A stretch of DNA of 64,000 bases, taken from assembly GCF_000223375.1 (NCBI RefSeq), contig NC_017384.1, positions 996,097 to 1,060,096 of the forward strand. The letters are read 5' to 3'. The position numbers were made by a program, and so were the translations under genes. Below are positions 33,022-59,898 of this stretch, in pieces; position 1 is the stretch's first letter, and the number at the start of each line of letters is the position of its first letter. The notes beneath the pieces are model-generated. The model saw only the letters and a list, made by a program, of their open reading frames with translations. It was not told where the DNA came from and did not search any database. Source of the stretch: Ketogulonicigenium vulgare WSH-001 (lineage in GTDB: Bacteria > Pseudomonadota > Alphaproteobacteria > Rhodobacterales > Rhodobacteraceae).

Positions 33022-33774
33022 TTAAAGCCGCGGCCGCTTTTCGCCCGCCTCGATCCGGAAGGGCAGAATGTTCTGCGGCGGCGGCAAGGGACAGGTGGCA
33101 AAGGGCGTAAAGCCGCAAGGCGGCGTGACCGCTTTGTTGAAATCCAGCGTCACGCTATCCGCAGTCACATCCTCGCCAAAGACGAACCGCGCCGCCGGAT
33201 AGGTGCTGTCGCGCGCCGTCAGATCACGCAGCACGAACATCGGGCGATCCGCGCTGCCATGGGTCGCCAGCAGTTCCACCTGTTGCCCGCCATGGTGAAA
33301 GACGGCCTTATGGGTAACGGTCACGGATGTCGCGATTTCCGCCACTGTATCAATCGGTTGCTGGATCGGCGCATCCAGCGCCACCCAATCCGCGCGGATA
33401 CGCCATGCGGGATCGGCGGGGAAATAACTCAACCCGTCAAAGGCAAACCGGGCCTGATCCGAAAGGTCACGCACGCGGATGGCATAATGCCCCTCGAGCG
33501 CGGTGAATTCCAGCAGCAGGTCGCTGATCGTTACGCGGTTATGGTCAAGCGGCAGCGCCTGCCCGTCAGCATTCGCAAAACTGATCGCGCTGCCCGTGCG
33601 GGTCACTGTGCCTAAGTGGTCGGGGCCAACCGACAGCACCAGATCATTATCCGCCGCGCGGCCAATGCGGAACGTGCCTTGGCCATATTCCACGCGGTCA
33701 GTGATATTCAGCCAACCTGCATCAGCCTGCAGGCCGGCAAGGCGCGCCGCGCGCCAGTCGTCGTAACTCATCAT
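33022..33774 (-). CDS. DUF1684 domain-containing protein in transporter operon B
   Basis: About 250 residues, cytoplasmic (no signal). The DUF1684 core is plain: LRDLTARDSTYPAARFVFGED, then VTLDFNKAVTPPCGFTPF, ATCPLPPPQNILPFRIEAGEK. The starting ATGATG overlaps the stop of the dual ATPase gene (TCATGATG), so it is the fifth gene of importer operon B. The function of DUF1684 is not established; the paired PPC/CPLPPP motifs are highly conserved in the family. Its coupling suggests it handles the substrate of this importer. Confidence 0.88.
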   Translation of the reverse strand: MMSYDDWRAARLAGLQADAGWLNITDRVEYGQGTFRIGRAADNDLVLSVGPDHLGTVTRTGSAISFANADGQALPLDHNRVTISDLLLEFTALEGHYAIRVRDLSDQARFAFDGLSYFPADPAWRIRADWVALDAPIQQPIDTVAEIATSVTVTHKAVFHHGGQQVELLATHGSADRPMFVLRDLTARDSTYPAARFVFGEDVTADSVTLDFNKAVTPPCGFTPFATCPLPPPQNILPFRIEAGEKRPRL

Positions 33775-35378
33775 GACACCCACTTTGGTAAATCTGGCAG
33801 CGCCGCCAGCAGGCTTTGCGTATAGGGATGCGCGGGGGCGTTGAATACCTGATCAACGCTGCCCTCCTCGACAATCTCGCCCGCATTCATCACCAACACG
33901 CGGTCGCTGACATGGCGGATCACGCCCAGATCATGGCTGACAAACAGCATCGTCAGACGCAGATCATGGCGCAACTTTTCCAGCAGATCCAGCACCTGCG
34001 CCTGGGTCGAGACATCGAGCGCCGAGACAGGTTCGTCGCAGATCAGGATATCGGGCTCCATCGCCAAGGCACGTGCAATGGCGATGCGCTGGCGCTGGCC
34101 GCCAGACAAAGCGCGCGGGCGCCGCGACAGATAGGCCGCCGTCAGCCCAACCGATCCCAGCAGCGCGCCCGCGCGCGGGGCGCGGTCCTTTGCAGGCACG
34201 CCCGCCAGTTCCAGCGCCTCGGCCATGATCTGGCCGACGGTGTGGCGCGGGTCAAAGGCGCTGGCAGGATCTTGCGAGACCAGTTGCACCTTTGGCCGCA
34301 GGGGCCTGCGCGCGCGCTCGGGCAGTTCCGACCACGCCGCGCCGCGCAGGGTGATCGTGCCGCTATCGGGGCGTTCCAATCCCAGCACCAGCCGCGCAAG
34401 GGTTGTTTTCCCGCTGCCGGACGCCCCAACCAGGCCCAGAGTCTCGCGCTGCCGGATGGTAAAAGAGACGTTTTTGACGATGGGCTTGCCGCCAAAACCC
34501 TTGCTGACACCATCGGCAGCGATGACCACATCCGCGCCAGCCGCCGCCCGCGCGGGCGCAGCGGCCCCCAAAGTTAATGCTTTGCCGCGGGTTTTCTCGG
34601 ACGGGATCGCGGCCAGCAATTGCTGTGTATACAGCGCCTGCGGCGCGCCCAGCACCTGCGCAGGCGGGCCGGATTCCACGACTTCGCCCTGTTTAAGCAC
34701 GATAATATGGTCGGCCAACCGCCCCACCACCGCCAAATCATGCGAGATCAGGATGATCGCCTGCCCCGCCGCCTTCATTTGCGCCAGCAGGGTCAGGATC
34801 TGGTCCTGCACGATCACATCCAGCGCGGTGGTCGGCTCATCCGCGATCAGGACCTCGGGCGCGCCCGAGATGGCCGAGGAGATCAGCGCCCGCTGCCGCA
34901 AACCGCCCGACAGTTGGTGCGCAAACTGCCGCATCCGCGGGCGCGGATCGGGGATACCGACCGAGGTCAGCAGATCGGCCACGCGCGTGGGGATTGCACT
35001 GCGGGGGGCAAGGCGATGCTCGCGCAGCGTCTCGCCCACCTCGGCGCCGATCCGTTTCAAAGGATCAAGGGAGACCAGCGCGTCCTGCAATACGAAACCG
35101 ATATGGCGGCCGCGCACGCCGCGCCATTCCTGCGGGTTCAGCGCGAGCAGATCCGACGCACCAAGACGCATGTGATCGGCGCGGACCTCGGCGGTCTCGC
35201 CCGACAACCCCACCAGCGCACGGGCCGTCGCGGATTTACCCGAGCCACTTTCCCCAACAATCGCAAGGCATTCGCCCGCCCGCAGCGTAAAGGACAGGCC
35301 CTGCACGGCATGGACATCCTCAGCCGCCGTGCGACCCGCAAAACGGATATGCAGATTTTTCACATCCAAAAGGGTCAT
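33771..35378 (-). CDS. Dual-domain peptide ABC importer ATPase (system B)
   Basis: DppD- and DppF-type ATPases fused in one chain of 535 residues. First half: Walker [12 protein letters not shown], signature QLSGGLRQRALI, Walker [15 protein letters not shown]. Second half: Walker A GASGSGKTTLA, signature [16 protein letters not shown], Walker B ILICDEPVSALDVS. The ATG at 35378 overlaps the permease stop (ATGA); the frame continues upstream to 36047 only as an overlap with the permease. It energises the permeases at 35375 and 36226. Confidence 0.93.
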   Translation of the reverse strand: MTLLDVKNLHIRFAGRTAAEDVHAVQGLSFTLRAGECLAIVGESGSGKSATARALVGLSGETAEVRADHMRLGASDLLALNPQEWRGVRGRHIGFVLQDALVSLDPLKRIGAEVGETLREHRLAPRSAIPTRVADLLTSVGIPDPRPRMRQFAHQLSGGLRQRALISSAISGAPEVLIADEPTTALDVIVQDQILTLLAQMKAAGQAIILISHDLAVVGRLADHIIVLKQGEVVESGPPAQVLGAPQALYTQQLLAAIPSEKTRGKALTLGAAAPARAAAGADVVIAADGVSKGFGGKPIVKNVSFTIRQRETLGLVGASGSGKTTLARLVLGLERPDSGTITLRGAAWSELPERARRPLRPKVQLVSQDPASAFDPRHTVGQIMAEALELAGVPAKDRAPRAGALLGSVGLTAAYLSRRPRALSGGQRQRIAIARALAMEPDILICDEPVSALDVSTQAQVLDLLEKLRHDLRLTMLFVSHDLGVIRHVSDRVLVMNAGEIVEEGSVDQVFNAPAHPYTQSLLAALPDLPKWVS

Positions 35379-36229
35379 GTGCGGCGTCCCTCGGACAAGG
35401 CTTTCAGGCTGCGGCCCAACACAGTGGTCGCAATAATCGTCATCGTCGCGAAAAGCCCCGGAAAAACGCCGATCCACCACGCGACGCGCAGGTAATTTTG
35501 CCCCTCGGACAGCATCAAGCCCCATTCCGGCGTCGGCGGTTTTGGCCCAAGGCCAAGGTAAGACAGCGCCGCCGACTGCAAGATCGCGCTGCCAACCCCC
35601 AAGGTGGCCAGCACCACCAGCGGCCCGATCGTATTGGGCAGAATGTGCCGCCAGAGTGTCACTGCGGGCGCTTGACCTAGGATGCGCGCGGCCTCGACAT
35701 AGCCCGCGCTGCGGATCACCAACACCTGCGCGCGCACGATCCGCGCATAGCCCGGCACCATGGCAATCGCGATGGCCAGCAGGATATTGGTGCTGCTGGT
35801 GCCAAGGAATGCGACCACGGCCATCGACATCAGCAGGCTGGGAAAGGCCATCAGAATGTCGATAACACGCATCAGCGCCATATCGACCACGCCGCCAATC
35901 GCGCCCGACAAAAGGCCGATCAGAATGCCAACCGTAACCGCGATCAGCGTCGCGCCGCCCGCGATATACAGCGAGTGGCGCGCGCCATAGATCGTGCGGC
36001 TGAAAATATCGCGGCCCAGCTGATCCGTGCCGAAAAGATGCGCCCACGATGGTGCTTTCAGCGAGGCCAAAAGATCGGGTGTCAACGGGTTATGCGTGGC
36101 AATGACCTGCGGCGCCAGCGCGCAAAAAACGATGAACACAAAGACCAGTCCCGACAGGATCAGGCCCAACCCGATAGCCCTGGGGCGGTGACGGTCGAGG
36201 CTGGTCGCCTCTAGAACAAGGTTGCTCAT
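35375..36229 (-). CDS. Peptide/nickel ABC importer permease, DppC type (system B)
   Basis: 284 residues, about six helices. HLFGTDQLGRDIFSRTIYGARHS, EAA-type loop EAARILGQAPAVTLWRHILP and YLGLGPKPPTPEWGLMLSEG identify the DppC subunit. Start and stop each overlap the neighbouring gene by four bases (ATGA). Confidence 0.92.
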   Translation of the reverse strand: MSNLVLEATSLDRHRPRAIGLGLILSGLVFVFIVFCALAPQVIATHNPLTPDLLASLKAPSWAHLFGTDQLGRDIFSRTIYGARHSLYIAGGATLIAVTVGILIGLLSGAIGGVVDMALMRVIDILMAFPSLLMSMAVVAFLGTSSTNILLAIAIAMVPGYARIVRAQVLVIRSAGYVEAARILGQAPAVTLWRHILPNTIGPLVVLATLGVGSAILQSAALSYLGLGPKPPTPEWGLMLSEGQNYLRVAWWIGVFPGLFATMTIIATTVLGRSLKALSEGRRT

Positions 36230-37152
36230 GCGCCTGCCCTCTGCACGCGGGGGTCAATCAGGCGATAGAGCAGATCAACCAGAATATTGATGGTGACAAA
36301 GACCAAGGCAGCGAACAAAACGACGCCGATCACCACCGGAATGTCCTGATTGCGCACCGCTTGCAGCGTGATACGGCCAAGGCCGGGGCGGCCAAAGACC
36401 GTCTCGGTAATGATCGCACCGCCCAAAAGCGCGCCGAACATCTCGGCCGAAATGGTCAGGCCGGGGATCAGCGCATGGCGCAGCGCATGACGCCAGCGCA
36501 GCGCCCATTCCGACAGGCCTCGCGTGCGGGCGGTCAGCGCAAAGGGCTGTTCCAGCGCCATATCCATCTCTTGCCGCATGACTTGGCTGAGGGTGCCGAA
36601 CAGCGACAGCCCCAGCGTCGCGACCGGCAGCACCAGAGAGCGCCAACTGCTATCGCCCATCACCGGAAAGATCGCCCAGCGAAACGAAAAGAACGTCAGC
36701 AGCAGAATCCCGATCCAAAAGGCAGGCGTTGCAATCGCCACCAGCTCGATCCCCGAGATCAGCCACCGCCAGAACCCGCGCCGTCCCGCCGTCAGCAGCG
36801 CCGATAGCACCGCCAATGTCACCGCAAAGCCCACCGCCAGCACCGCCATGGTGATGGTTGATCCCAGCTCGCTGGTGATGATCGACACGACCGAGCGGCG
36901 CTGTTGATAGCTTTCGCCCAAATCCCCCTGCACCAAGCGACTGATAAAATTCGCATATTGCTGATGTACCGGCAGATCGAGCCCGTATTCCGCGCGGATA
37001 CGGTCGCGCATCTCGGGCGTGACGGTGCTGTCGGCGCCATAGATCACCTGCACGGGATCGCTGGGCAGTAATTGCAGAACCACGAATGCCAAAGATGCCG
37101 CGGCCCAAAGGACCGCGACACCGGCAAGAATTCTTACCAGAATCTCGCGCAT
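36226..37152 (-). CDS. Peptide/nickel ABC importer permease, DppB type (system B)
   Basis: 308 residues. Begins MREILVRILAGVAVLWAAASL. Family marks are LQLLPSDPVQVIYG, YGLDLPVHQQYANFISRLVQGDLGES, the EAA-type RTRGLSEWALRWRHALRHAL and the ending LVDLLYRLIDPRVQR. It lies three bases after the binding-protein gene and overlaps the next permease by four. Confidence 0.92.
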   Translation of the reverse strand: MREILVRILAGVAVLWAAASLAFVVLQLLPSDPVQVIYGADSTVTPEMRDRIRAEYGLDLPVHQQYANFISRLVQGDLGESYQQRRSVVSIITSELGSTITMAVLAVGFAVTLAVLSALLTAGRRGFWRWLISGIELVAIATPAFWIGILLLTFFSFRWAIFPVMGDSSWRSLVLPVATLGLSLFGTLSQVMRQEMDMALEQPFALTARTRGLSEWALRWRHALRHALIPGLTISAEMFGALLGGAIITETVFGRPGLGRITLQAVRNQDIPVVIGVVLFAALVFVTINILVDLLYRLIDPRVQRAGA

Positions 37153-37155
37153 AGA

Positions 37156-38754
37156 TTACGGAGCCAGCCAGGTGCCGTGATAGCTGCCGATCTGGCCCGA
37201 GTTGTGGAAGATCACCCCGTTCACGCTGCTACGCGCGGCGACGAGCACTTGGTTATTCGCAATCGGCAACAGATAGGCGTTGTCGTTGATGATCTGCTGC
37301 GCCTCGCGGTAAGCAGCGGCGCGGGCGTCCTGATCTGCGCTGTGCAGGCCAGTTTCCAGCGCCGCATCCAGCGCGGGGTCATTCACAAAGCCCCAGTTCG
37401 TATTGCTGACCGCCCAAGTCTGCGTCGAGAAGAAGGCCCCGAACAACAGGTTCGGATCGCCTGCCGCCTGCGAGGTATCAACGATATCATATTCATTATT
37501 GTTGAAGATCTGATCCACTGACGCGAAATCCAGCACATCGCGGGTATATTCGACGCCAATCGCCTGCAGACCGGCCTGAATGCCTTGGGCGAACAGCTCG
37601 CGCTGCTGGTTGTTCCAGTTCACAGCCGACACATCGCGCAGCGCAAGGCGCACGCCGTCTTTCACACGAATGCCGTCCGCACCCGGCACCCAGCCCGCCT
37701 CGTCCAGCAGCGCCTGTGCGGCGGCGGCGTCAAAGCGCCAAGCGCCTTCGAATTCAGGGACATAGGCCCATGGAATGCCGGGCGTGATCGCGCCATAAGC
37801 GGGCGTTGCCGTGCCAAGGAAGACCGCCTGCACAAGGCCGGCGAAGTCGACACCGATACGCAACGCCTCGCGCACGCGCTGGTCGTCCAGCGGCGCTTTG
37901 CTTTGGTTCAGCCAAAACGACCACGGGATGCCCGGCTGTTCGGTGCGCAGCAATTGCAGCGCGCTGTTCGCCTCGATCGCGGGGACGGCGATGGCGGGGA
38001 TGACGGTCGCGATATCGGCCTGACCGGATTCAACCGCGCCGACGCGCACCGCATCCTCGGCCAAAAAGCGCAGCTCGACCCCGTCCAGATAGGCCGGGCC
38101 CTCATGCGCGGCATCGGCGGGCGCCCAGTTATAATCGGGGTTGCGCTCCAGCGTCAGGCTTTGGCCGACAGCACGGGCCGCCACGCGGAACGGGCCCGAG
38201 CCTGCGGTGACACCGGGGCCACCCTCGCAACGCGCCTCTTTCGAGAATTCCGTCATTGAGGTGGGCGAGACGAGACCCAATTGCGGCTCGCTCAGGTCAT
38301 GCAGCAGCGGGCTGTAGGGCTCAGACAGGGTCAGGGTCACGGTCGCGCCATCGGCGGCGACAGAGGCGACGGGCACGCCGCCTGCATTCTTGTCATCGAC
38401 CCAGCGCTGCAGGTTGACGCGCACAGCCTCGGCATCCAGCGGGGTTGCGTCGTGAAAGATCACACCATCGCGGATCGTGAACGTATAGGTCAGCCCGTCT
38501 TCGGAAATCTCCCAAGCGCTGGCGATCCACGGATGGAACGTGCCATCGAGGTTCTTCGAGATCAGGCGATCATAGACATCCTGCATCGCCGTCTGGCTGT
38601 TGCGCGAGCTGCCCTCGTTCAGATCGAGGCAGAGCGGCTCGAATGTCGCGACGCGCAAAATCCCGCCGGCACTGGGCGCGTCCTGCGCCTGCGCACTGCC
38701 GGCCGCCACAAGCGCGGTCGCCAAAAGCAAAGTCGTTCGAGTGCCAAGACGCAT
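37156..38754 (-). CDS. Peptide/nickel ABC importer substrate-binding protein (system B)
   Basis: Family 5 binding protein, about 532 residues. A GTG at 38763 is possible, but the ATG at 38754 has AGGTGG five bases upstream and starts the Sec signal (MRLGTRTTLLLATALVAAGSAQAQ). Core motifs: GILRVATFEPLCLDLNEGS, YTFTIRDGVIFHDATPLDAEAV, QRVREALRIGVDFAGLVQA. First gene of the five-gene operon B; its promoter should lie in the 198 bases before the ATG, an AT-rich stretch with no clear boxes. The ligand is not predictable. Confidence 0.92.
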   Translation of the reverse strand: MRLGTRTTLLLATALVAAGSAQAQDAPSAGGILRVATFEPLCLDLNEGSSRNSQTAMQDVYDRLISKNLDGTFHPWIASAWEISEDGLTYTFTIRDGVIFHDATPLDAEAVRVNLQRWVDDKNAGGVPVASVAADGATVTLTLSEPYSPLLHDLSEPQLGLVSPTSMTEFSKEARCEGGPGVTAGSGPFRVAARAVGQSLTLERNPDYNWAPADAAHEGPAYLDGVELRFLAEDAVRVGAVESGQADIATVIPAIAVPAIEANSALQLLRTEQPGIPWSFWLNQSKAPLDDQRVREALRIGVDFAGLVQAVFLGTATPAYGAITPGIPWAYVPEFEGAWRFDAAAAQALLDEAGWVPGADGIRVKDGVRLALRDVSAVNWNNQQRELFAQGIQAGLQAIGVEYTRDVLDFASVDQIFNNNEYDIVDTSQAAGDPNLLFGAFFSTQTWAVSNTNWGFVNDPALDAALETGLHSADQDARAAAYREAQQIINDNAYLLPIANNQVLVAARSSVNGVIFHNSGQIGSYHGTWLAP

Positions 38755-38952
38755 GATATCCACCTGTTATTAGCCGCATATTCCGTGCAGCGCCGAAAAT
38801 ATCCCACCTTCATATGCGAGGCGGAATGCCCTGTCGATAAAGGCAGTCTGCCATCTTTTGTGCCGCATTTGGAAGAAAATGACTGCTTCAGGGTCGAAAT
38901 CAGTTAAATTTTCCCTCACCCCATCTGAAATATACCAATATATATAATTATA

Positions 38953-39684
38953 TCAGTTAATTAACATAGGTATTTCATCCAACTGATGAACCATATGGCG
39001 CGCCGCTTCGGGTTTTCGCGCCCGACGGTCTTCGGTGTAATAGATCGTCTGCAAACCAAGGCGCGCGGGCGCTGCGATATCCCAAATCGGGTCATCGCCG
39101 ATCATCCATGTCTGATCGGCGGACAGGTCCAACTGCGCCAGCAGCAGCCGATAGGCGGCGGGCTCGGGCTTGCCGATGCCGACCTCTTCCTCGATCTGGA
39201 TGGCATCGAAATAGCGCGCCAGATCAAAGCGCTGGATTTTGCCGCGTTGGCGTGCGCCAGATCCGTTGGTCAGCAGCGCCAGCCGCAGCCCGCGTTGCTG
39301 CAACAGGCCCAGCACATGATGCGCGCCGGGTTTGAGGGAAATCGTTTCTTCCAGATAACTTTCGAACCGGTCCGCAATACGGTCGGCGTCAACCCCATGC
39401 AGCGGTTCAGAGCCGCCAGGCCGTGCAAGGTTCAGGTGATGAAAGGCCGAGCGCACGACCTTGCGCCGCGTCGCATCGCCCTCAAGCCGCCACAGCTTGC
39501 GGCCTTCCTCGCGCGCCAAAAAGCTGAGGACTTTATCCAGCACGCCAGCCGTTACCCAGGCACTGTCATGCTCGCCCAAAGCCTCGGCATTTTCTGCGAT
39601 GATCGCGAACCAGGTCTTGCCCGGCGTGCGATAAGCGGTCAGCAATGTGTCGTCGAGGTCAAAGATCACAGCGCGGGCATTCAT
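38953..39684 (-). CDS. HAD-family phosphatase at the end of operon C
   Basis: HAD superfamily hydrolase, 243 residues. Motif I is VIFDLDDTLL (nucleophile D9, acid D11), motif II LALLTNGSG, motif III lysine in VGIGKPEPAAY and motif IV in MIGDDPIWDIAAPARLG. An alpha-helical cap follows motif I, as in YjjG/phosphoglycolate-phosphatase-like enzymes. It is not a phosphonatase: the DxAGTT motif and cap lysine of PhnX are absent. The ATG overlaps the aminotransferase stop by four bases, making it the last of seven coupled genes. Confidence 0.87.
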   Translation of the reverse strand: MNARAVIFDLDDTLLTAYRTPGKTWFAIIAENAEALGEHDSAWVTAGVLDKVLSFLAREEGRKLWRLEGDATRRKVVRSAFHHLNLARPGGSEPLHGVDADRIADRFESYLEETISLKPGAHHVLGLLQQRGLRLALLTNGSGARQRGKIQRFDLARYFDAIQIEEEVGIGKPEPAAYRLLLAQLDLSADQTWMIGDDPIWDIAAPARLGLQTIYYTEDRRARKPEAARHMVHQLDEIPMLIN

Positions 39685-40739
39685 CGCAAAGCCTCCAGCA
39701 CCGCTGCGCGATCGACCGGTAAGCCAATCTTTAGGAACACATCACAAAGCACTGAAATATCGTGCTCAATCACCCAAGGCGTGGCGCGCGGGCCGGTGTG
39801 GTTCAGACGAATGATCCGATCGCCCGCGGGGCCAACCCCGGCCGATAGCGCCGTGTCCTTGGGGGCAAGGGCCAGCACATCAGCCGCGCTGATCCCATCG
39901 GGCAAAGCCACCGCTGTCACAAGGTTGGACGCCGCATCAGGCCGCACCCATGCGCGCCCTGTCAGCAGCAGGGCCGCGCGGCGCGCGCGATCAGCGGTAT
40001 CGGCGTGCCGTGCAATGAGCGCCGCCGCCCCCTCATCCGCGACACGCGCCAGCGCCGCGTGCAAGGCGTGAAACTCGATCGCCGAGGGCGTGCCCGGCAG
40101 CGCGCCGCGCCCCCTATCCAGCCACAGCGCGCGCTGATCGGCCAGTGACAGGATCGACGGCGCCTCGCCCTGCGGCGCAACAGCGGCCCAGGCGCGATCT
40201 GACACGGCAATGGCCGAGGTGCCCGCCTGCCCGCCCAAGGATTTTTGCGGGCCGATCACCGCCAGATCAATGCCCCATTCGTCAACGCGCAACGCGTGCC
40301 CGCCGACCGAGGCCACCGCATCCACCACCACCAACGCGCCATGCGCACGCGCCAGCGCCGCGATATCGGGCAGCGGGTTCAGGATGCCATAGGCGCTTTC
40401 TGCATGGACCAGAGCCACCAGATCGAAATCGCCCTGCGCCAGCGCATCAGCCACCGCCGCAAGCGCAATCGGCTGGCCTGCCGCGGCCTGCAGATCCACC
40501 ACATCCGCCCCCGCGCGGCGCAGCCAGCCACCAAACCACTGCCCATACATCGAGGTCACGATATTCAGCGCGCTGGCGCCCGGCCGCCCCAGTGACATCG
40601 CGCAAGCCTCTAGAGCCACCACCGCCTCGGCCTGGATCAGCAGCACGTCGTTTTGGGTGTGCAGAATCTGGGCGATCTGATCGGCAAGTGGCGCATAGCC
40701 ATCCGCCGGAAAGGGCGGAATATCGGTCAGCGTGGTCAT
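39681..40739 (-). CDS. Class V PLP aminotransferase in operon C
   Basis: 352-residue fold-type I enzyme of the alanine-glyoxylate/serine-pyruvate/2-aminoethylphosphonate transaminase group. The PLP lysine is K166 in IGPQKSLGGQAG, and the cofactor-binding Asp is D140 in LVVVDAVASVGG. VHAESAYGILNPLPDIA resembles the substrate-side segment of the group. The C-terminal arginine region is RIIRLNHTGPRATP. Amino donor and acceptor cannot be told. It overlaps both the ATPase gene and the HAD gene by four bases, which argues that it acts on what system C imports. Confidence 0.86.
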   Translation of the reverse strand: MTTLTDIPPFPADGYAPLADQIAQILHTQNDVLLIQAEAVVALEACAMSLGRPGASALNIVTSMYGQWFGGWLRRAGADVVDLQAAAGQPIALAAVADALAQGDFDLVALVHAESAYGILNPLPDIAALARAHGALVVVDAVASVGGHALRVDEWGIDLAVIGPQKSLGGQAGTSAIAVSDRAWAAVAPQGEAPSILSLADQRALWLDRGRGALPGTPSAIEFHALHAALARVADEGAAALIARHADTADRARRAALLLTGRAWVRPDAASNLVTAVALPDGISAADVLALAPKDTALSAGVGPAGDRIIRLNHTGPRATPWVIEHDISVLCDVFLKIGLPVDRAAVLEALR

Positions 40740-41509
40740 GGGATGGTCCCCTTTATAGATGGAACGGCGGCGATCAGGCGGCGCGCCATATCAGATTGCG
40801 GCGCGCGCAGCAGCGCCTCGGCGTCGGCCTCTTCGACGATACGACCCGCCTCCATCACTGCGATCCGGTGCGAGATGGCGCGCACGACCGCGATATCATG
40901 GCCGATAAACAGATAGGACAGGCCAAGACGCTTTTGCAGATCGACAAGCAGATCAAGCACTTGGCCGCGCACGCCTGCATCAAGCGCAGAGACCGCCTCG
41001 TCCAGAATGATCAGCTTTGGCCCGGTTGCAATGGCGCGCGCGATGGCCACGCGCTGACGCTGGCCGCCCGACAGATCGCGCAGCGGGCGATGGGCAAAAT
41101 CGGCATCCAATCCCACCTGCGCCAACAGCTCGGCCATGCGCAGGCGGCGCGCGGGCGCAGCAAGCGGGGATTGCAGGCGCAGCGCCTCCGTAATCGCGCC
41201 GCCTGCTGTGGCGCGCGGGTGAAAGGCGGCGGCGGGGTCCTGAAACACCATTTGCAAGCGCCCGCGGGCGCGTCGCAGCGCCCCGCCGTGCAGCGCCAGC
41301 CAATCCTGCCCGTCAAATGTGACGCTGCCCTGATCTGCAGGCACCAGCCGCGCCAGCACCCGCGCGAGGGTTGATTTCCCGCAACCCGAAGGCCCGATCA
41401 GGCCCAAAGTTTCACCCGGCGCAATGGCCAGCGACACATCCGACAGTGCCAGAACGCCCCGCGCGCCGGTATAGGATTTCGTCAGACCGTTAACCGTCAG
41501 CAACGTCAT
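40736..41509 (-). CDS. Peptide/nickel ABC importer ATPase, second subunit (system C)
   Basis: 257 residues, DppF-like but without the long C-terminal oligopeptide tail, more as in nickel/opine importers (NikE type). Walker A GPSGCGKSTLA, Q-loop MVFQDPAAAFHP, signature DLSGGQRQRVAIARAI, Walker B LIILDEAVSALDAG. Four-base overlaps with genes on both sides. Confidence 0.91.
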   Translation of the reverse strand: MTLLTVNGLTKSYTGARGVLALSDVSLAIAPGETLGLIGPSGCGKSTLARVLARLVPADQGSVTFDGQDWLALHGGALRRARGRLQMVFQDPAAAFHPRATAGGAITEALRLQSPLAAPARRLRMAELLAQVGLDADFAHRPLRDLSGGQRQRVAIARAIATGPKLIILDEAVSALDAGVRGQVLDLLVDLQKRLGLSYLFIGHDIAVVRAISHRIAVMEAGRIVEEADAEALLRAPQSDMARRLIAAVPSIKGTIP

Positions 41510-42276
41510 ACTGACACCCGACGCGGGCTGTTCAGGTCGATTGTCGCCGCCAACAGTGACCGTGTATACATCTGGGACGGATGATGGATCACCTGTTCCG
41601 CCGTGCCGATTTCGACCAACCGCGTCTGATGCAGCACCGCGATCCGCTGCCCAAGACTGCCCGCCAGCGCGATATCATGGGTGATGAACAGCAGCGCCAT
41701 CTGGTTCTGGGCGCAAAGGCGGCGCAGCAGCGCGACAATCTCGGCCTGAACCAGCACGTCCAGCGCCGAGGTTGCCTCATCCGCGATCAGCAAGCGCGGC
41801 GCGGCGGCAATGGCCAACGCGATCGCGATGCGTTGGCGTTGCCCGCCGGAAAACTGATGCGGAAAGGCATGCCGCGCAAGCGCGGGTTGCGGCAATTGCA
41901 CCTGTTCCAGCAGCGCAAGTGCCCGCGCTTGCCGCTGTGCGCGGGTGCCGCCCTGATGTGCCTTGATCACCTCATCCAGATGCGCCCCGATGGACAGCAG
42001 CGGGTTCAGACTGCCGCCCGGATCTTGGAAAACATAGCCGATATCGCGGCCAAGGCGCATCTGATCACCCTGCCAGTCCAAGGTGCCGCCTTGGGCGGTG
42101 CCCGCAGGCAACAGCCCCGCAATCGCGCGCGCCAAGGTCGATTTGCCCGAGCCGGATTCTCCGATCACGGCCAGGCGTTCCTGTGCGTGCAGTGACAGGG
42201 AAAGGCCCGACAGCGCGGGCGCGGCGCTGCGCGGATAGCGCACGGATAGGTCGCGGATGTCCAGCAGAACGCTCAT
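41506..42276 (-). CDS. Peptide/nickel ABC importer ATPase, first subunit (system C)
   Basis: 256 residues from the ATG at 42276 (MSVLLDIRDLSVRYP); the frame further upstream overlaps the permease. Walker [13 protein letters not shown]-loop YVFQDPGGSLNP, signature [16 protein letters not shown], Walker B LLIADEATSALDVL. Like its partner it lacks the long oligopeptide tail. Four-base overlaps on both sides. Confidence 0.91.
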   Translation of the reverse strand: MSVLLDIRDLSVRYPRSAAPALSGLSLSLHAQERLAVIGESGSGKSTLARAIAGLLPAGTAQGGTLDWQGDQMRLGRDIGYVFQDPGGSLNPLLSIGAHLDEVIKAHQGGTRAQRQARALALLEQVQLPQPALARHAFPHQFSGGQRQRIAIALAIAAAPRLLIADEATSALDVLVQAEIVALLRRLCAQNQMALLFITHDIALAGSLGQRIAVLHQTRLVEIGTAEQVIHHPSQMYTRSLLAATIDLNSPRRVSV

Positions 42277-43085
42277 CTTCTGACCTTTCCGGTGACGCGG
42301 TCGCTGATCGCCTCGCCTAGCAGATAGGTCGCGATGACCGTCACCACCAGCGCAAGGCCGGGGATGATCGACAGCCACGGCGCGGCGCGCAATTGGTTGC
42401 GCCCCTCGGCGATCATCCCGCCCCAAGTGACGACATTCGGATCGCCGAGGCCCAAAAATGACAGCGCGGATTCGGTCAAGATCGCCCCCGCGACAATCAC
42501 CGCAGTCAGCGCCAACACCGGCGGCAATGCCAGCGGCATGATCTGGCGCAGGGCGATCTCGGCCGGATGCATCCCGATGACGCGCGCGGCGGCGACGAAA
42601 TCCGCCTGTTTCAACGCCAAGACACGCGCCCGTGCCAGCCGCGCGGGGCTGGTCCATGCCCCGATGGCAATGGCCAGCACCAGCATCCCAAGGGACGGCC
42701 CGCTGACCGCGACAAAGGCCAGCGCAAGCAGAAATCCCGGAACGATCTGGAACGCCTCGACAACGCGCATCAGCACAGCCTCGACCCAGCCACCGGCGAA
42801 ACCTGCGATGGTGCCGACCAGCATCCCTGCCGCAATCGCCACAATCGCCGCCGAGAGCCCGACGATGACGGATGTGCGGGCGCCGTGGATCACCCCCGCC
42901 AGCAAATCGCGGCCCAACCTGTCAGTGCCTAAAGGGTGATGTGCATCCTGAAACGGCAGTGTCAACGGGCGCGCTACAATCGCCAGCGGATCGCCCGGCG
43001 ACAGCCAGGGCGCAAACAGCGCCGCGCCCAGCACGATCAGCAGCAACACCCCGCCAGCCATGGCACCAAAATCAAACCGCATCAC
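42273..43085 (-). CDS. Peptide/nickel ABC importer permease, DppC type (system C)
   Basis: 270 residues. HHPLGTDRLGRDLLAGVIHGARTS, the EAA-type AAARVIGMHPAEIALRQIMP and FLGLGDPNVVTWGGMIAEG mark the family. About six membrane helices. Joined by ATGA overlaps to the permease before it and the ATPase after it. Confidence 0.92.
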   Translation of the reverse strand: MMRFDFGAMAGGVLLLIVLGAALFAPWLSPGDPLAIVARPLTLPFQDAHHPLGTDRLGRDLLAGVIHGARTSVIVGLSAAIVAIAAGMLVGTIAGFAGGWVEAVLMRVVEAFQIVPGFLLALAFVAVSGPSLGMLVLAIAIGAWTSPARLARARVLALKQADFVAAARVIGMHPAEIALRQIMPLALPPVLALTAVIVAGAILTESALSFLGLGDPNVVTWGGMIAEGRNQLRAAPWLSIIPGLALVVTVIATYLLGEAISDRVTGKVRR

Positions 43086-44062
43086 CCCTCCTGCCTGACG
43101 CGCGGGTCGAGCAGCCCATAGGTTAGATCGACCAGCAGGTTCGCGATGATGACCATGACGGCAGAGACGACGATCACCCCCAGCAGCAACACCGTATCAC
43201 GCCCCGCGACCGCCTCTTGCGCAAGACGGCCAAAGCCGGGGATGCCGAACACGCTTTCGATCACAACCGAGCCTCCCAGCATCGCCGCCGCTTGCAGCCC
43301 CAGCATCGTAATCAGCGGCATCAGCGCGTTGCGCGCAGCATGGTTCAGCACTTGGCGCCGATCTGACAGCCCGCGCGCCCGGGCGGCCAGCAGGTAATCC
43401 TGTGTCCAGGCCTCGGCCATGCCTGCCCGCATGATACGCAGAAACAGCGCCAGATAGATCATTCCCAGCGCAGAAACAGGCAGCGCAAGATGCCATGCGA
43501 CATCCAGCGCGCGCGCCAAACCGGCCTTGCCCGAGGCAATCGTCTCGATCCCCGAGACCGGAAACCACCGCAGTTGCACCGCGAAAATCACCGACAGCAC
43601 CAGCCCGAACCAGAAACTGGGCAGCGAATACAGCAGCAGCGAGCCGCCAGACAGCAGCCGGTCCAGCGCCGATCCGGGCCTGCGCCCTGCCAAAATGCCA
43701 AGGCCCGATCCAAACACAAACGACAGCGCCGTCGCACTGCCCATCAGCCATAATGTATTGGGCAGACGCTCAAGTATCACATCGGCAACGGGACGGTTCA
43801 GCGCTACCGACCAGCCCAGATTGCCCTGCGCCAGTTGCGACAGGGTAAACCACAGCCGCGCGACCAGCGGCTGGTCTAGGCCAAAGCGCGCGCGCATATC
43901 GGCAGCCAGGCCCGCATCACCGCCACCGATCGACGCCAGATAAGCGTCAACCGCATCCCCCTGCGCCTGATCGAGCAACAGAAACACCCCAACGACAACG
44001 ATCAGCAGCACCGGAATGCTGCCGATCAGACGCTGTGCAATCCGTTTCAGCAAGAAGCTCAT
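43082..44062 (-). CDS. Peptide/nickel ABC importer permease, DppB type (system C)
   Basis: 326 residues. Starts MSFLLKRIAQRLIGSIPVLLIV. Has RFGLDQPLVARLWFTLSQLAQGNLGWS, the EAA-type ARARGLSDRRQVLNHAARNAL and the ending LVDLTYGLLDPRVRQ. Its ATG overlaps the stop of the binding-protein gene (ATGA), an unusual lack of spacing after a gene whose product is normally needed in excess. Confidence 0.92.
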   Translation of the reverse strand: MSFLLKRIAQRLIGSIPVLLIVVVGVFLLLDQAQGDAVDAYLASIGGGDAGLAADMRARFGLDQPLVARLWFTLSQLAQGNLGWSVALNRPVADVILERLPNTLWLMGSATALSFVFGSGLGILAGRRPGSALDRLLSGGSLLLYSLPSFWFGLVLSVIFAVQLRWFPVSGIETIASGKAGLARALDVAWHLALPVSALGMIYLALFLRIMRAGMAEAWTQDYLLAARARGLSDRRQVLNHAARNALMPLITMLGLQAAAMLGGSVVIESVFGIPGFGRLAQEAVAGRDTVLLLGVIVVSAVMVIIANLLVDLTYGLLDPRVRQEG

Positions 44063-45648
44063 TCGGCCAAGGCGAAATCAGCCCAGTTCGACACGGCCCA
44101 ACGCGGATTGGTCGCGATGTTTTGCAGCCGGTCGGATGCGACCGAGGTAAAGGACCAGTCGGCGACGTTGATCAGGGGCAGATCCTCGGTCACTTTTTGC
44201 TGGAACTGGTGATACAGATCAACCCGCGTCGCCGTATCCAGCGTCGTCAGCGCGGTATCGATCAGCGCGTCCAGATCGGCATTCTGATAGCCGCCTTGGT
44301 TCGAGAATGTGACCCCCGCAGGCAGACCCGACCGCACGAGGTTCGTCGTGGAAATCGCGGGATCTGCACGGAAAACCGGCGGCGCGACGGCAAGGTCAAA
44401 GGCGTGATCGGTATAAACGGCGCGCTGATGGCCCGCGCTGTCATTGGCGATGATCGTCGCCTCGATCCCGATGGCGGCAAGGGCTTGGCGCAGGTAATCG
44501 CCGAATTGGCGCGTCTCGTTGAAATAGGGCGCGGGCAGCAGGCGCAGTGCAAAGCGCACGCCATTCGCGCCAGCGGCAAAGCCCGCCTCGTCCAGCAGCG
44601 CATTGGCGGCGGCGACGTCGAAATCATAGGTGGTGACATCGGGCGTGTAGAAGGTCGGATCATTCGCAGGCACCGGGCCGGTCGCGGCGGCGGCATAGCC
44701 GAGGAAGATCGTATCGAGCACGAATTGCTTATCAATCGCATGGGCGATGGCGCGGCGCACTGAAAGGTTCGACAGATATTCGTTGCGGTGGTTGATCTCG
44801 ACCACCAGTTGATAGGTAAGCGCCTCGTAACCTTTGGTGATCACCTGCAGGCCGGGCACCTGCCCGATCCGCGCCAGATCGACCAGCGGTACGGCAGAGA
44901 AGGCGGCCAATTGGATCTCATCCGCCTCGAGCGAGTTGGCGGCGGCGGCGCGGTCCGGCAGCACGCGGAAGACCAGCTCTTCGGTCACCGGCAAATCCGC
45001 CTGCCAGTAATTCGGATTGCGCCGCAGCAGGAAATATTCGCCGGGGCGATAGTCACCCCACGTATAAGGCCCCGTCCCGATCAGTGCACGGTTCGCCGGA
45101 TTTTCGGCGATATCCGTGCCCTCGTAAATATGGCGCGGCAGCACCGAGGAGACCGTTGGCAGCGCCAGCGTGATCAGTTGCAGCGGCGTTGGCTGCGAGA
45201 AGATGAAGACAGAGGTGTGATCATCCGGCGTCTCGACACTTTCCAGATTGGCGAACAGGCTGCGGCCGATATTTTGCAGCGGCTTCCAAACCTCGAGCGC
45301 CGAAAACGCCACATCGGCCGAGGTAAAGGGCTGGCCGTCGTGCCATGTCACCCCCTCGCGCAAGGTGAAGGTGATCGACAGCCCGTCCTCGCTGCCCTCC
45401 CAGCCGGTGGCCAGCAGCGGGGTCAGGCCCTCGCCATCATAGGACGCCTCGGCCAAAGGCTCGATCACCTTCGAGGCGACAAAGAACACGCCATTCGAGG
45501 CGACAATCGCGGGGTTCAACTGGCGCGGCTCGCTATCGGCGGCGATGGTGATGCGCCCGCCTGCCTGCGCCCGTGCAAATTGCGGGGCCAGCGCCATCAG
45601 CGCGCCGGAACTGAGCAGGAAACCACGACGGGAAAGAGCGAAAGTCAT
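44059..45648 (-). CDS. Tat-exported ABC importer substrate-binding protein (system C)
   Basis: Family 5 binding protein of 529 residues. The N terminus MTFALSRRGFLLSSGALMAL is a twin-arginine signal (S-R-R-x-F-L-L) ending near ARAQA, so it is probably exported folded. Core motifs: GRITIAADSEPRQLNPAIVAS, TFTLREGVTWHDGQPFTSADVAF and VRRAIAHAIDKQFVLDTI. GAGGTG precedes the ATG. It is first in the seven-gene operon C. Tat export may mean fast folding or a bound cofactor; the ligand is unknown. Confidence 0.92.
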   Translation of the reverse strand: MTFALSRRGFLLSSGALMALAPQFARAQAGGRITIAADSEPRQLNPAIVASNGVFFVASKVIEPLAEASYDGEGLTPLLATGWEGSEDGLSITFTLREGVTWHDGQPFTSADVAFSALEVWKPLQNIGRSLFANLESVETPDDHTSVFIFSQPTPLQLITLALPTVSSVLPRHIYEGTDIAENPANRALIGTGPYTWGDYRPGEYFLLRRNPNYWQADLPVTEELVFRVLPDRAAAANSLEADEIQLAAFSAVPLVDLARIGQVPGLQVITKGYEALTYQLVVEINHRNEYLSNLSVRRAIAHAIDKQFVLDTIFLGYAAAATGPVPANDPTFYTPDVTTYDFDVAAANALLDEAGFAAGANGVRFALRLLPAPYFNETRQFGDYLRQALAAIGIEATIIANDSAGHQRAVYTDHAFDLAVAPPVFRADPAISTTNLVRSGLPAGVTFSNQGGYQNADLDALIDTALTTLDTATRVDLYHQFQQKVTEDLPLINVADWSFTSVASDRLQNIATNPRWAVSNWADFALAE

Positions 45649-46711: not shown

Positions 46712-48232
46712 TCAGCCTGCGATATGATCCGGTTTGGGCGCCCGATAATGCGCCAGCAACACAAAGACGAGGCAGGCCAGCGCGCCGATCAGGGCCGCCG
46801 ATGTGGTCAGCAGCACGGCATGTGTGTCCGTAAAGGCCGCTTTGGCCGCCGCAATCAGCGCCGTCCCATCCGCCATCTGCGCCGCAACAAGATAGCTGTC
46901 ACCGATCGAGCGCATGGCCGCATCCGCCATATCGGGGGCAATCCCCTCGGGCAGGACGATCATGCGGGTGAAGATGCTGGACATGAACACCCCGAACAAG
47001 GTGATCCCAAGGCCGCTGCCCAGCTCATAGCTGGTCGCCTCTAGCGCGCCGGCAGCGCCGCCCTTTTCGGCCTCGACCGCGCCCATGATCGCGATGGACG
47101 AGGCCGTCAGCCCGATGCTAAGGGCAAGGCCCAGCAGCGCCAGCAGCATCGGCACCACCCAACCCGGATCGTGGAAATCAAGCTGCGCCAAAGTTGCCAG
47201 CGAGGCCGCCGATGAAAGCAGCGCCAGCGTGGCCACATTGCGCAGCCCGAACCGGTTGCTCAGATACCCCGCAACAGGCCCGCCGACGCCAGAGGCCAGC
47301 ATGATCGGGATCATGAAAATCCCGGCCTGCAGCGGCGTGCGATCCAGCACATATTGCAGCTCTTGCGCCAGCGTCAGCTCGACCCCGGCCAGCGCGGATG
47401 TGGCGACCACGGCCATGATCATGCCCGCGACAATCGCCGGGCGCGACAGCAGCGACAGATCCAGCATAGGTTCCGGAGCGCGCAGTTGCTGGCGGGCAAA
47501 CAGGCCCAGCATCAGCGCACCAAAGGCAAGGATCGCCAGCACGGTGCCGATGGATTGCTTGCCGCCAAAGCCCGCTTTGATACTGTAAACCACCGAAATC
47601 ATGCCGATGATCAACAAGATCGCCTGACCAAATCGCCAAGCACCGGGGGTGCGCGCCTCGGCCCGTGGCAGCAGGGCATAGGCGACTGGCGCGACGATCA
47701 GCATCACCGGCAGGTTGATCAAAAAGACCGAGCCCCACCAGAAATGCGCCAGCAGCGCGCCGCCCACCAGCGGGCCGACAGCCGCGCCCGCCGCGCCGAC
47801 CGTGCCCCACAGACCCAGTGCCATCGCGCGTTCCGCCGGGTCGTCAAAGGTTTTGCGGATCACCCCCAGCACACAGGGCATGATCATCGACCCGCCCAGC
47901 GCCAGCATCACCCGCGCCGCGATCAACATCGGCGCATTGGGTGCAAAAGCTGCAAGGGTCGAGGCCGCACCAAACACGACCAGCCCTGTCAGCAAGATGC
48001 GCCGCGTGCCGATGCGGTCCGCCAACGTGCCCATCGGCACCAGCAGACCCGCCATCATCAGCGGATAGATATCAATGATCCACAGCACCTGCGTATGCGA
48101 CGCGCCCAGTGCCTGCGTCAGCGTGGGCACGGCGATGTGCAGAATTGTCATATCGATGACAACCGGCAAAAATGCCAGCATCACCGCAAGCAGAATAAAC
48201 CAGCGTTTCGGATCGGATGGACGGGCAGACAT
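46712..48232 (-). CDS. MFS drug exporter, DHA2 (14-helix) family
   Basis: 506 residues with about 14 membrane helices. Motif A-like LVPMGTLADRIGTRRILLTG follows helix 2, and the N terminus VVIDMTILHIAVPTLTQALGAS has the Asp of the DHA2 motif D1. GLWGTVGAAGAAVGPLVGG is motif C of antiporters. The sequence resembles SmvA/QacA-type exporters of quaternary ammonium compounds and dyes. It is divergent from a tetR gene, and its promoter spacer holds a palindrome, so the TetR protein very likely represses it. Confidence 0.92.
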   Translation of the reverse strand: MSARPSDPKRWFILLAVMLAFLPVVIDMTILHIAVPTLTQALGASHTQVLWIIDIYPLMMAGLLVPMGTLADRIGTRRILLTGLVVFGAASTLAAFAPNAPMLIAARVMLALGGSMIMPCVLGVIRKTFDDPAERAMALGLWGTVGAAGAAVGPLVGGALLAHFWWGSVFLINLPVMLIVAPVAYALLPRAEARTPGAWRFGQAILLIIGMISVVYSIKAGFGGKQSIGTVLAILAFGALMLGLFARQQLRAPEPMLDLSLLSRPAIVAGMIMAVVATSALAGVELTLAQELQYVLDRTPLQAGIFMIPIMLASGVGGPVAGYLSNRFGLRNVATLALLSSAASLATLAQLDFHDPGWVVPMLLALLGLALSIGLTASSIAIMGAVEAEKGGAAGALEATSYELGSGLGITLFGVFMSSIFTRMIVLPEGIAPDMADAAMRSIGDSYLVAAQMADGTALIAAAKAAFTDTHAVLLTTSAALIGALACLVFVLLAHYRAPKPDHIAG

Positions 48233-48285: not shown

Positions 48286-48324
48286 CTGAAATGTGTCACC
48301 ACTACAGCTTTGACGGACTTTCGA

Positions 48325-48843
48325 ATGGGTAGAAAACCAACCATCTCGCGCGAAGGCTTGCTGGATGTTGCGACTGAAATTTTACGCAATGACGGCGCGC
48401 GCGCCCTGACGATCGACGCGCTGGCAAAGGCGGCGGGGATATCAAAGGGCGGCGTGCAATATTCGTTCTCATCCAAAGATGATCTGATCCGCGCGCTGGT
48501 CAGCCGCTGGACCGAGCAGATCGACGCGCTGCTCGAGCTGGATCAACAGACCGACCCGGTGGCGCTGGTGCGCCGCTATATCCATACGATGCGCGCCTCG
48601 GAAAATGCGATGGACAGCAAGATGGCCGGCCTGCTGATCGCGTTCTATCAAGATCACCAGAACCTGCTGGACACCCGCGCGTGGTATATCAGCGTGCTGG
48701 CAAAGCTAGAGGGCGATAGCCCCGGCGCACGGGCCGCGCGGATCGCTTTCCTTGCGGTCGAGGGGCTGCTGATGCTGCGCGCCGTGGGGGTCGAGCCACC
48801 GTGGAACCAGCGGCTGGACGAGATCGAGGCAAGCTTGCCTTAA
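48325..48843 (+). CDS. TetR-family transcriptional regulator
   Basis: 172 residues from the ATG at 48325 (MGRKPTISREGLLDVATEIL); a TTG at 48310 is possible but the ATG gives the usual family start. The N-terminal helix-turn-helix is ALTIDALAKAAGISKGGVQYSFSSKDDLIRAL. The C-terminal ligand domain contains DPVALVRRYIHTMRAS and KMAGLLIAFYQDHQNLL, typical of the TetR_C_6-like group. It should control the divergent MFS exporter and itself through the palindrome at 48263. Confidence 0.9.
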   Translation: MGRKPTISREGLLDVATEILRNDGARALTIDALAKAAGISKGGVQYSFSSKDDLIRALVSRWTEQIDALLELDQQTDPVALVRRYIHTMRASENAMDSKMAGLLIAFYQDHQNLLDTRAWYISVLAKLEGDSPGARAARIAFLAVEGLLMLRAVGVEPPWNQRLDEIEASLP

Positions 48844-58305: not shown

Positions 58306-59898
58306 ATGACACAAACAAGACGTGACTTCCTGCGCAGCTCTGCGCTTTTGTCGGCCGCTTTTGCAATGCCGTGGCAGGCTGCTATGGCTCAGACCGGCAC
58401 CCGCGCCCCCGTGTTCAAATGGGTACCGCATGCCGATCTGTCGGTCGTCGATCCGATGTATTCGACCGCGCTGATCACGCAGCTTTACTCGCTGCTGACC
58501 TTTGACACGCTGTTTGGTCTGGACGAGAACTACGAGGCGCAGCCGCAGATGGCTGAAAGCCATAGCGTCGAGAACGACGGGCTGCAGCACACGATCACGC
58601 TGCGCGACGGGCTAAAGTTCCACAACGGCGATGCGGTGACGGCGGCGGATTGCGTGGCCTCGATCGAGCGCTGGTTCGTGCGCGGTGGCACGGCGACCTC
58701 GCTGGCGGCAGCTGTCGATAGCGTGACGGTCGTGGATGACAAGACCTTTGTCTTCGCGCTGAACACGCCGTTCCCGCTGCTGCCCGCGCTACTGGCCCGT
58801 CCGCAAAACGGCTGCACCATCATGCCCGCGTCCGAGGCCGCCTCTGCTGACCGCATTGATCGCCCGACCGGCAGCGGCCCCTATAAAATGGTCTGGGACG
58901 AATGGGTGCAGGGCGCCAAGGTCGTCTTTGCCCGCTTCGAGGATTACGTCCCGCGCGAAGGCGGCGAGGCCGTGTTCACCGCCGGCGCCAAGATCGCCAT
59001 GGTCGACCGTATCGAATGGCTGGTCATCCCCGATGCCGCCACTGCGGTCGCGGCCTTGCAGGCCGGCGAGGTCGACGGGATCGAGGGCGTGTCGCTGGAC
59101 TTTGCCCCGATCTTGCAAATGATGCCGGGCTTTACCCTCTATCGTAATGCCATGCCGCAAATGGGTGTGCTGCGTTTCAACCAACTGCATGCGCCGTTCA
59201 ACGATATCCGTGTGCGCCAAGCGGTGCAGATGGCCGTCAGCCAGCAAGACTTCATGTATGCTTTGGCCGGTGCGGAAAACGCCGACTATCTGGATGTGCA
59301 TACCGGTGCCTTTGTGCCCGGCACACCGATGGCCAGCGACCGTGGCATGGCGGCTTTGGACGGCCCCCGCGATCTGGAAGCCGCAAAAGCGCTGCTGCGC
59401 GAGGCCGGTGCCTATGGCGCGACGATCACACTGATCGATTCCGTCTCGATCGCCTCGCTGCATTCGATGGCGCTGATCGGTGCGGATCTGCTGCGCCGTC
59501 TGGACTTTGACGTCAAGGTCGAGACGCTGGACTGGGGTGCATCGCTGCAAAAACGCGAAGTGCGCGTCGCGCCGAGCGAAGGCGGCTGGAACGTGTTCTT
59601 CACCATCATCTCGGGCACCAACAACCTTGACCCGATCGGTCAGCTGGCCATCCGTGGTCGCGGTGAAGCAGGCTGGTTCGGCTGGCCGACATCCGAGCGG
59701 ATCGAAGAGCTGTATGCCCAATGGATGGCCGCCGCGACGCAAGACGAGCGGATCGAGATTGCCGCTCAGATGCAGGAACAGATGTTCGTCGACGTGCCCT
59801 ATATCCCGCTTGGTTGCATCTATGGCGTCACCGCCGTGACCGACAAATGGACCGGCGTGCAGACGAATATGCCGACCTTCTACACTTTGCGCGGCTAA
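58306..59898 (+). CDS. Tat-exported ABC importer substrate-binding protein (system D)
   Basis: Family 5 binding protein, 530 residues. MTQTRRDFLRSSALLSAAFA is a strong twin-arginine signal (T-R-R-x-F-L-R) ending near AAMAQ. Core: VPHADLSVVDPMYSTALITQL, LQHTITLRDGLKFHNGDAVTAADC, IRVRQAVQMAVSQQDFMYAL. It lies 34 bases after the M20 gene. A perfect 11-base-pair hairpin follows the stop, before the permease genes, which should stabilise the message and favour surplus binding protein. Confidence 0.93.
   Translation: MTQTRRDFLRSSALLSAAFAMPWQAAMAQTGTRAPVFKWVPHADLSVVDPMYSTALITQLYSLLTFDTLFGLDENYEAQPQMAESHSVENDGLQHTITLRDGLKFHNGDAVTAADCVASIERWFVRGGTATSLAAAVDSVTVVDDKTFVFALNTPFPLLPALLARPQNGCTIMPASEAASADRIDRPTGSGPYKMVWDEWVQGAKVVFARFEDYVPREGGEAVFTAGAKIAMVDRIEWLVIPDAATAVAALQAGEVDGIEGVSLDFAPILQMMPGFTLYRNAMPQMGVLRFNQLHAPFNDIRVRQAVQMAVSQQDFMYALAGAENADYLDVHTGAFVPGTPMASDRGMAALDGPRDLEAAKALLREAGAYGATITLIDSVSIASLHSMALIGADLLRRLDFDVKVETLDWGASLQKREVRVAPSEGGWNVFFTIISGTNNLDPIGQLAIRGRGEAGWFGWPTSERIEELYAQWMAAATQDERIEIAAQMQEQMFVDVPYIPLGCIYGVTAVTDKWTGVQTNMPTFYTLRG

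Follow-up and report, generated by a model that had tools for sequence, protein, structure and literature searches.

What does a compact bacterial operon import, and what becomes of the cargo, when it encodes a complete peptide-type importer followed by an aminotransferase and a phosphatase-type hydrolase? The question is raised by seven co-directional open reading frames at 38953-45648, on the minus strand of a 64,000-nucleotide stretch (hereafter the window) of Ketogulonicigenium vulgare WSH-001, a member of the Rhodobacteraceae. The operon is chromosomal; its contig has 2,766,400 bases and the whole genome 3,277,101. A sequence-only reading had described a binding protein, two permeases, two ATPases, a class V aminotransferase and a haloacid dehalogenase (HAD) phosphatase, and our gene coordinates and Pfam assignments (SBP_bac_5, two BPD_transp_1, two ABC_tran, Aminotran_5 and HAD; Table 1) agree with it. 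It had also likened the two enzymes to PhnW and PhnX of 2-aminoethylphosphonate degradation. The proper comparison is instead with pyridoxamine-pyruvate aminotransferase (PPAT) and vitamin B6 metabolism. We propose, with a probability of slightly under one half, that the operon encodes an importer of the Dpp/Opp type whose cargo is a vitamin B6-type amine, together with a transaminase and a phosphatase that process this amine. The operon as observed is confirmed and its interpretation shifts from phosphonates to vitamin B6, as a testable proposal and not a proven pathway.

The seven-gene operon is real. Adjacent genes overlap by exactly 4 bases at all six junctions, as had been noted; the overlap reads ATGA at five of them and GTGA at 43082-43085, where the DppC/OppC-type permease has an alternative ATG start (43082-43080) that overlaps the preceding stop by 1 base. 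With a simple purpose-made gene caller, 4-base overlaps were counted in 10 of the 47 same-strand neighbour pairs of the window. The operon holds six of these in an unbroken run and the other pairs 4 of 41, which is more than chance would give. Exact 4-base junctions number 4, 5 and 1 out of six in the orthologous operons of three relatives (G389, G391 and G410, respectively); tight packing is conserved and the perfect 4-base chain is not. None of the seven proteins reaches an NCBIfam equivalog cut-off, in keeping with the earlier suggestion of an uncharacterised route.

We searched for the same gene order in 394 genomes of the family, about one per genus and including the host (G000). Aminotransferases 64-69% identical to that of the window occur in G389, G391 and G410, which represent three other genera, so that this window type is present in 4 of the 394 genomes; in each of the three, tblastn recovered the full set of seven genes with its order unchanged (58-82% identity). 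No comparable aminotransferase was found in 384 further genomes from the class, a sample that includes some family members (best match 40%). In a plasmid collection, 112 records match the aminotransferase (102 Rhizobium, 7 Shinella and one each of Sinorhizobium, Haematobacter and Ochrobactrum), mostly at 50-59% identity. At least two of these are of another type (ACO-34A and Ochrobactrum, 35%), the ACO-34A enzyme being a true PPAT (642 bits). Binding proteins 60-80% identical to that of the window appear in 108 plasmid records and are common on Rhizobium plasmids. All four annotated plasmid loci examined (Rhizobium johnstonii 3841 pRL9, with the binding-protein homologue RL_RS27075, Shinella HZN7, Sinorhizobium B11 and Rhizobium etli CIAT 652) carry the first six genes in order, from the binding protein through two permeases and two ATPases to the aminotransferase, and no HAD relative lies in the examined stretch of any of them. 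Likewise, no HAD relative at E ≤ 1e-18 was found in 284 other family genomes (the best nine candidates per genome were scored, and G389, G391 and G410 lie outside this sample).

On these searches, the HAD gene is characteristic of the Rhodobacteraceae-type variant alone. The transporter and aminotransferase are the core and the HAD gene is an addition to it. Of the single shared pathway that had been read from the gene overlaps, the importer and the aminotransferase thus stand as a functional unit, their order being kept in four family genera and on four rhizobial plasmids. Relatives of the transporter occur without the HAD gene in the rhizobia and in G322, G065, G015, G165 and G275, and in G322 without an adjoining aminotransferase as well. 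In the family genomes sampled, the two enzymes were not seen to belong constantly to some other pathway elsewhere. Of the two findings that the sequence-only reading had named as making a shared pathway unlikely, the first is thus half borne out and the second is not. It is improbable that the locus encodes an importer of peptides or metal chelates whose co-transcription with the two enzymes is incidental. Most members of the transporter superfamily handle peptides, nickel or opines and the rhizobial versions lack the HAD gene, but the order of transporter and aminotransferase is kept across two orders and many plasmids, and the binding protein misses the curated NikA, DppA and CntA models by far (162 of 393, 113 of 1005 and 111 of 800 bits). 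The operon appears to be mobile, judging from its neighbours in two of the relatives: a RepA-like plasmid partition gene lies near it in G391 (L125 2291-3589) and an IS5 transposase gene follows it in G410 (L126 11466-12398).

By its relationships the aminotransferase is a divergent transaminase of the PPAT lineage, probably independent of pyridoxal 5'-phosphate (PLP). Its best NCBIfam model is PPAT (NF046070), with 217.4 bits against 108 for BhcA and 100 for PhnW-AepZ. The best relative of solved structure is the PPAT of Mesorhizobium loti (2z9u; 154.8 bits, 97.6 for the next), and identity to PPAT is 30-38%. The predicted structure (predicted local distance difference test score 90.7) also matches 2z9u best in the PDB, tied with ureidoglycine aminotransferases. 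In a tree of 63 class V enzymes, including 4 of the window type, 16 of the PPAT clade and three from Synergistaceae, the window type (support 100/100) and the PPAT clade (90/79) form one clade (99/93), with the Synergistaceae sequences next (100/98). In this tree the window type is sister to all 16 PPAT-labelled rows and does not group with PhnW. When four rhizobial enzymes were added, they joined the window type (100/100); their order relative to the long branch L132 was not settled.

That the operon serves PhnW-PhnX degradation of 2-aminoethylphosphonate, or another phosphonate pathway, is highly improbable. Both pairs consist of a class V aminotransferase and a HAD protein, and the aminotransferase does match PhnW models weakly, yet it stays under every cut-off (TIGR03301, 100.5 of 360.8 bits; NF010006, 74.5 of 296; TIGR02326, 68.2 of 400.8) and groups with PPAT, which bears out the doubt that the sequence-only reading had itself expressed. 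The aminotransferase belongs to another subfamily, as the HAD protein appears to, and the importer is of another type. For the HAD protein, the phosphonatase model is not among the best 25 of the 33 families matched.

For the active site, residues are numbered as in M. loti PPAT (one more than in L135), and Glu68, Tyr95, Trp102, Asp171, Lys197 and Arg345 are kept in all four window-type enzymes. In the M. loti structure, Glu68 reportedly excludes the phosphate of PLP from the cofactor site. Glu aligns to it in 4/4 window-type, 4/4 rhizobial and 16/16 PPAT-clade enzymes and in 0/27 of those resembling alanine-glyoxylate (AGT) or serine-glyoxylate (SGA) aminotransferases, which have Ser, Thr or Pro. 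Trp102 is found in the same three sets (4/4, 4/4 and 16/16) and in none of 30 others, from all of which Tyr95 is likewise absent. The catalytic Lys197 and the carboxylate-binding Arg345 are Lys and Arg in all rows; being common to PLP-dependent relatives, they are not diagnostic. The three Synergistaceae enzymes (L013, L021 and L049), which are basal to PPAT, possess Glu68 and lack Tyr95 and Trp102.

The importer is linked to the same enzyme lineage. Its binding protein carries a twin-arginine-like signal (SRRGFLLSSG, spotted by eye), and binding proteins at least 55% identical to it occur in 9 of the 394 family genomes (100% for the host's own, then 82, 78, 77, 72, 60, 57, 55 and 55%). The values of 77-82% belong to G389, G391 and G410, that of 72% to G322 and those of 55-60% to a PPAT-linked group. 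In a tree these nine form one clade (91/91) with two halves, the window type plus G322 (100/98) and the four PPAT-linked proteins (97/99). In three of the latter genomes (G165, G275 and G015) a single co-directional run encodes a Bmp-type ATP-binding cassette (ABC) transporter, 4-pyridoxolactonase, PPAT and a pyridoxal 4-dehydrogenase of the short-chain dehydrogenase/reductase (SDR) type, followed by the Dpp-type transporter. In G165 the PPAT (650/600 bits) and the other two enzymes (480/325 and 414/325) all exceed their cut-offs, as do those of G275 and G015. The G065 transporter comes directly after a PPAT-clade enzyme whose 567 bits fall just short of the cut-off, and neither a lactonase nor a dehydrogenase adjoins. 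G065 is also the sole genome of 17 without PdxJ (PdxS and PdxT were not looked for), with PdxH and pyridoxal kinase over their cut-offs, and the presence of transporter and PPAT alone is as expected if the transporter feeds PPAT. G322 has a PPAT-clade gene (575 bits) on a contig other than that of its window-type transporter.

PPAT-lineage enzymes occur in 12 of the 394 family genomes, namely eight of the PPAT clade (at least 566 bits; six over the cut-off) and the four of the window type, and all nine genomes with a binding protein of at least 55% identity hold one. With the window-type genomes left out, PPAT is present in 5/5 transporter genomes and in 3/385 others (Fisher P 7.6e-10, a value tempered by the fact that it ignores relatedness and that the 55% line was drawn after the gap from 55% to 45% had been seen). 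The three PPAT genomes without the transporter are G187, G167 and G297; the G167 assembly has a completeness of 84%, and the contig breaks off shortly after the operon. Sister transporters at 43-45% identity in seven more genomes (L156-L162) adjoin other enzymes. These were named from one locus, L159, which has genes for a SufS-like class V enzyme, a flavin adenine dinucleotide (FAD) oxidase, an ATC hydrolase and an M20 peptidase, with divergent SDR, glyoxalase-like and Lrp genes; within the examined stretch, L157 has no class V gene and L158 no peptidase gene.

Under the proposed vitamin B6 route, the binding protein would hand pyridoxamine, a compound that contains it or a phosphorylated form to the ABC pump, and the HAD protein would strip the phosphate if the cargo arrives phosphorylated. 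The transaminase would take the unphosphorylated amine into its cofactor site, where Glu68 would bar a phosphate, and the aminomethyl nitrogen would pass via Lys197 to a 2-oxo acid. The products would be an amino acid and pyridoxal, or whichever aldehyde corresponds to the amine. As in PPAT, the B6 compound itself would be the pyridine partner of the enzyme. The compound is more likely to serve as a source of nitrogen (and phosphate) than in cofactor salvage, since with PdxJ and PdxH the host can synthesise PLP de novo and it shows no pyridoxal kinase (the kinase model finds nothing, and PF08543 is matched only below its cut-off). Cofactor salvage by known routes does not fit this host. G275, which has the full B6-degradation set, also matches neither kinase model, and the absence of a kinase is therefore compatible with B6 as a nutrient.

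The observations that weigh against B6 as the cargo concern the enzyme, the importer, the host and the HAD protein in turn. The aminotransferase is not filed as PPAT: it misses the cut-off of 600 bits, as do its orthologues (200.9-217.1 bits) and the rhizobial enzymes (205-231), and its 217 bits are barely above the 202 of an unrelated-looking class V enzyme of G278. Its score is low partly because about 35 N-terminal model positions are missing; the N-terminal stretch of about 30 residues with a Gly-Pro motif, found in PPAT and AGT, is lacking in the window-type enzyme. Arg336, reportedly a carboxylate-binding residue of PPAT together with Arg345, is Val in all four window-type enzymes and Val, Ile, Val and Thr in the rhizobial ones (it is also not Arg in 3 of the 16 PPAT-clade rows). 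Position 196, Asn or Gly in PPAT, is Gln as in the PLP-dependent AGT, and His144 and Phe247 are replaced by Ala and Gly. To judge from the alignment, the changes at 336, 196, 144 and 247 may have altered substrate or cofactor use. The main rival reading, at odds we put well short of even, is that a PPAT-lineage transaminase was recruited to some other imported, non-B6 amine, the change at Arg336 and the N-terminal loss having opened the active site, PLP perhaps having been regained and the HAD protein removing a phosphate. The retention of Glu68 and Trp102 argues against such a recruitment, as do the independent clustering of the transporter with PPAT-linked transporters and the co-existence in G322 of a window-type transporter with a true PPAT.

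As for the importer, six of the eight family PPAT loci have a Bmp-type ABC transporter (PF02608 in L135) immediately ahead of the genes for 4-pyridoxolactonase, PPAT and pyridoxal dehydrogenase, and three of these six have no Dpp-type transporter. For this reason the Dpp-type transporter of the mixed operons need not be the B6 carrier, and the Bmp-type transporter is a second and perhaps better candidate. The six loci are L134, L135, L136, L155, L163 and L164, and the PPAT gene of Rhizobium sp. ACO-34A (L175) likewise has a Bmp-type transporter nearby. The host has neither 4-pyridoxolactonase nor pyridoxal 4-dehydrogenase over the cut-off (best 30.4 and 169.9 of 325 bits) and, since it also has no pyridoxal kinase, pyridoxal would be a dead end in it by known routes. 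The specificity of the HAD protein is read from its family membership, and a phosphatase is not needed for the use of pyridoxamine 5'-phosphate where PdxH is present, as in the host.

The HAD phosphatase signature itself (DxD, Thr, Lys and acidic motif IV) is present and kept in the three orthologues, with the motifs DLDDT from residue 9, LTNGSG from 138, GKPEP from 171 and GDDPIWD from 196. Its nearest plasmid relatives are 36% identical and number two among 72,556 records at E ≤ 1e-8 (L172 8980-9711 and L173 8791-9537). They close agrocinopine-like runs on two Agrobacterium pAt plasmids, with genes for an Opp-type ABC transporter, a glycerophosphodiester phosphodiesterase (GDPD), an inositol monophosphatase, a NUDIX protein and an epimerase. 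This neighbourhood speaks weakly for an opine-like or agrocinopine-like phosphorylated nutrient, which the operon would import, dephosphorylate and transaminate on its amino part, and on three of the four rhizobial plasmids, too, the region downstream of the six-gene core holds genes for GDPD and inositol monophosphatase. Shinella, however, is without these downstream genes, other operons separate them from the core in R. johnstonii 3841, no GDPD is among the seven operon genes and the binding protein matches AccA only remotely, with E values no better than 4.8e-18 where the best chain reaches 1.4e-42. We consider such a nutrient unlikely.

Compared with known systems, the window enzyme resembles PPAT (EC 2.6.1.30; 2z9u-2z9x) in its clade and in Lys197, Asp171, Arg345, Glu68 and Trp102, and differs in adjoining a HAD gene rather than a dehydrogenase and a lactonase. 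The B6-degradation operons of G165, G275 and G015 share with it a sister transporter (binding proteins 55-57% identical) and a PPAT-lineage enzyme; the window operon is without their dehydrogenase, lactonase and Bmp-type transporter. The importer has the subunit set, Pfam families and order (binding protein-B-C-D-F) of Dpp, Opp and Nik importers, although it reaches none of their equivalog cut-offs. According to a 2023 survey (PMC9997740), only PdxU, PdxU2/HmpT and P5PA (the last described in PMC8427247) have been characterised among prokaryotic carriers of B6 vitamers or PLP; the survey regards the lack of further transporters as a puzzle. The three share the proposed cargo class with the window importer, and their families, given in the survey as PF07155 (energy-coupling factor type) and PF13531, are unrelated to PF00496 here. 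We found no Dpp/Opp-type B6 transporter in the open-licence papers searched. Tentatively, the operon could represent a new class of B6 importer on the Dpp/Opp scaffold, specific for pyridoxamine in free, phosphorylated or conjugated form, together with a second, divergent subfamily of PLP-independent pyridoxamine transaminases, by which Rhodobacteraceae-type bacteria and rhizobia would harvest nitrogen (and phosphate) from B6 that plants or neighbouring cells release, with no kinase-based salvage. If so, a transporter family common on Rhizobium plasmids would join the few known for B6, and the aminotransferase would show how the unusual PLP-independent chemistry of PPAT has diversified.

Table 1. 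Coordinates in the window of the operon genes and of an upstream hairpin.
Feature	Position	Strand	Evidence and remarks
Solute-binding protein (SBP_bac_5), gene 1 of the operon	44059..45648	-	PF00496, 261.7 bits
DppB/OppB-type permease	43082..44062	-	PF00528, 127.3 bits
DppC/OppC-type permease	42273..43085	-	PF00528, 79.1 bits; GTG start, or ATG at 43082
ABC ATPase, DppD/OppD-type	41506..42276	-	PF00005, 96 bits
ABC ATPase, DppF/OppF-type	40736..41509	-	PF00005, 118.5 bits
Class V aminotransferase (Aminotran_5) of the PPAT lineage	39681..40739	-	NF046070, 217.4 bits (cut-off 600)
HAD-IA phosphatase-type hydrolase	38953..39684	-	PF00702, 87.2 bits
Terminator-like hairpin between upstream nitroreductase gene and operon	45844-45823	-	Consensus match only; the scan found 8 in the region, 6.6 expected

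Directly downstream of the operon lies a second Dpp-type importer operon (33771-38763), with a binding protein (37156-38763; best model TIGR04028, 237.6 of 468.5 bits), two permeases and a fused double ATPase. Two further proteins of the window (23353-24948 and 58306-59898) align with these binding proteins at 24-25%. An SmvA-type efflux gene of the major facilitator superfamily is located at 46712-48232 (NF011571, 524.5 of 701 bits), and beside it a divergent TetR-like gene was recognised by eye (48310-48843).

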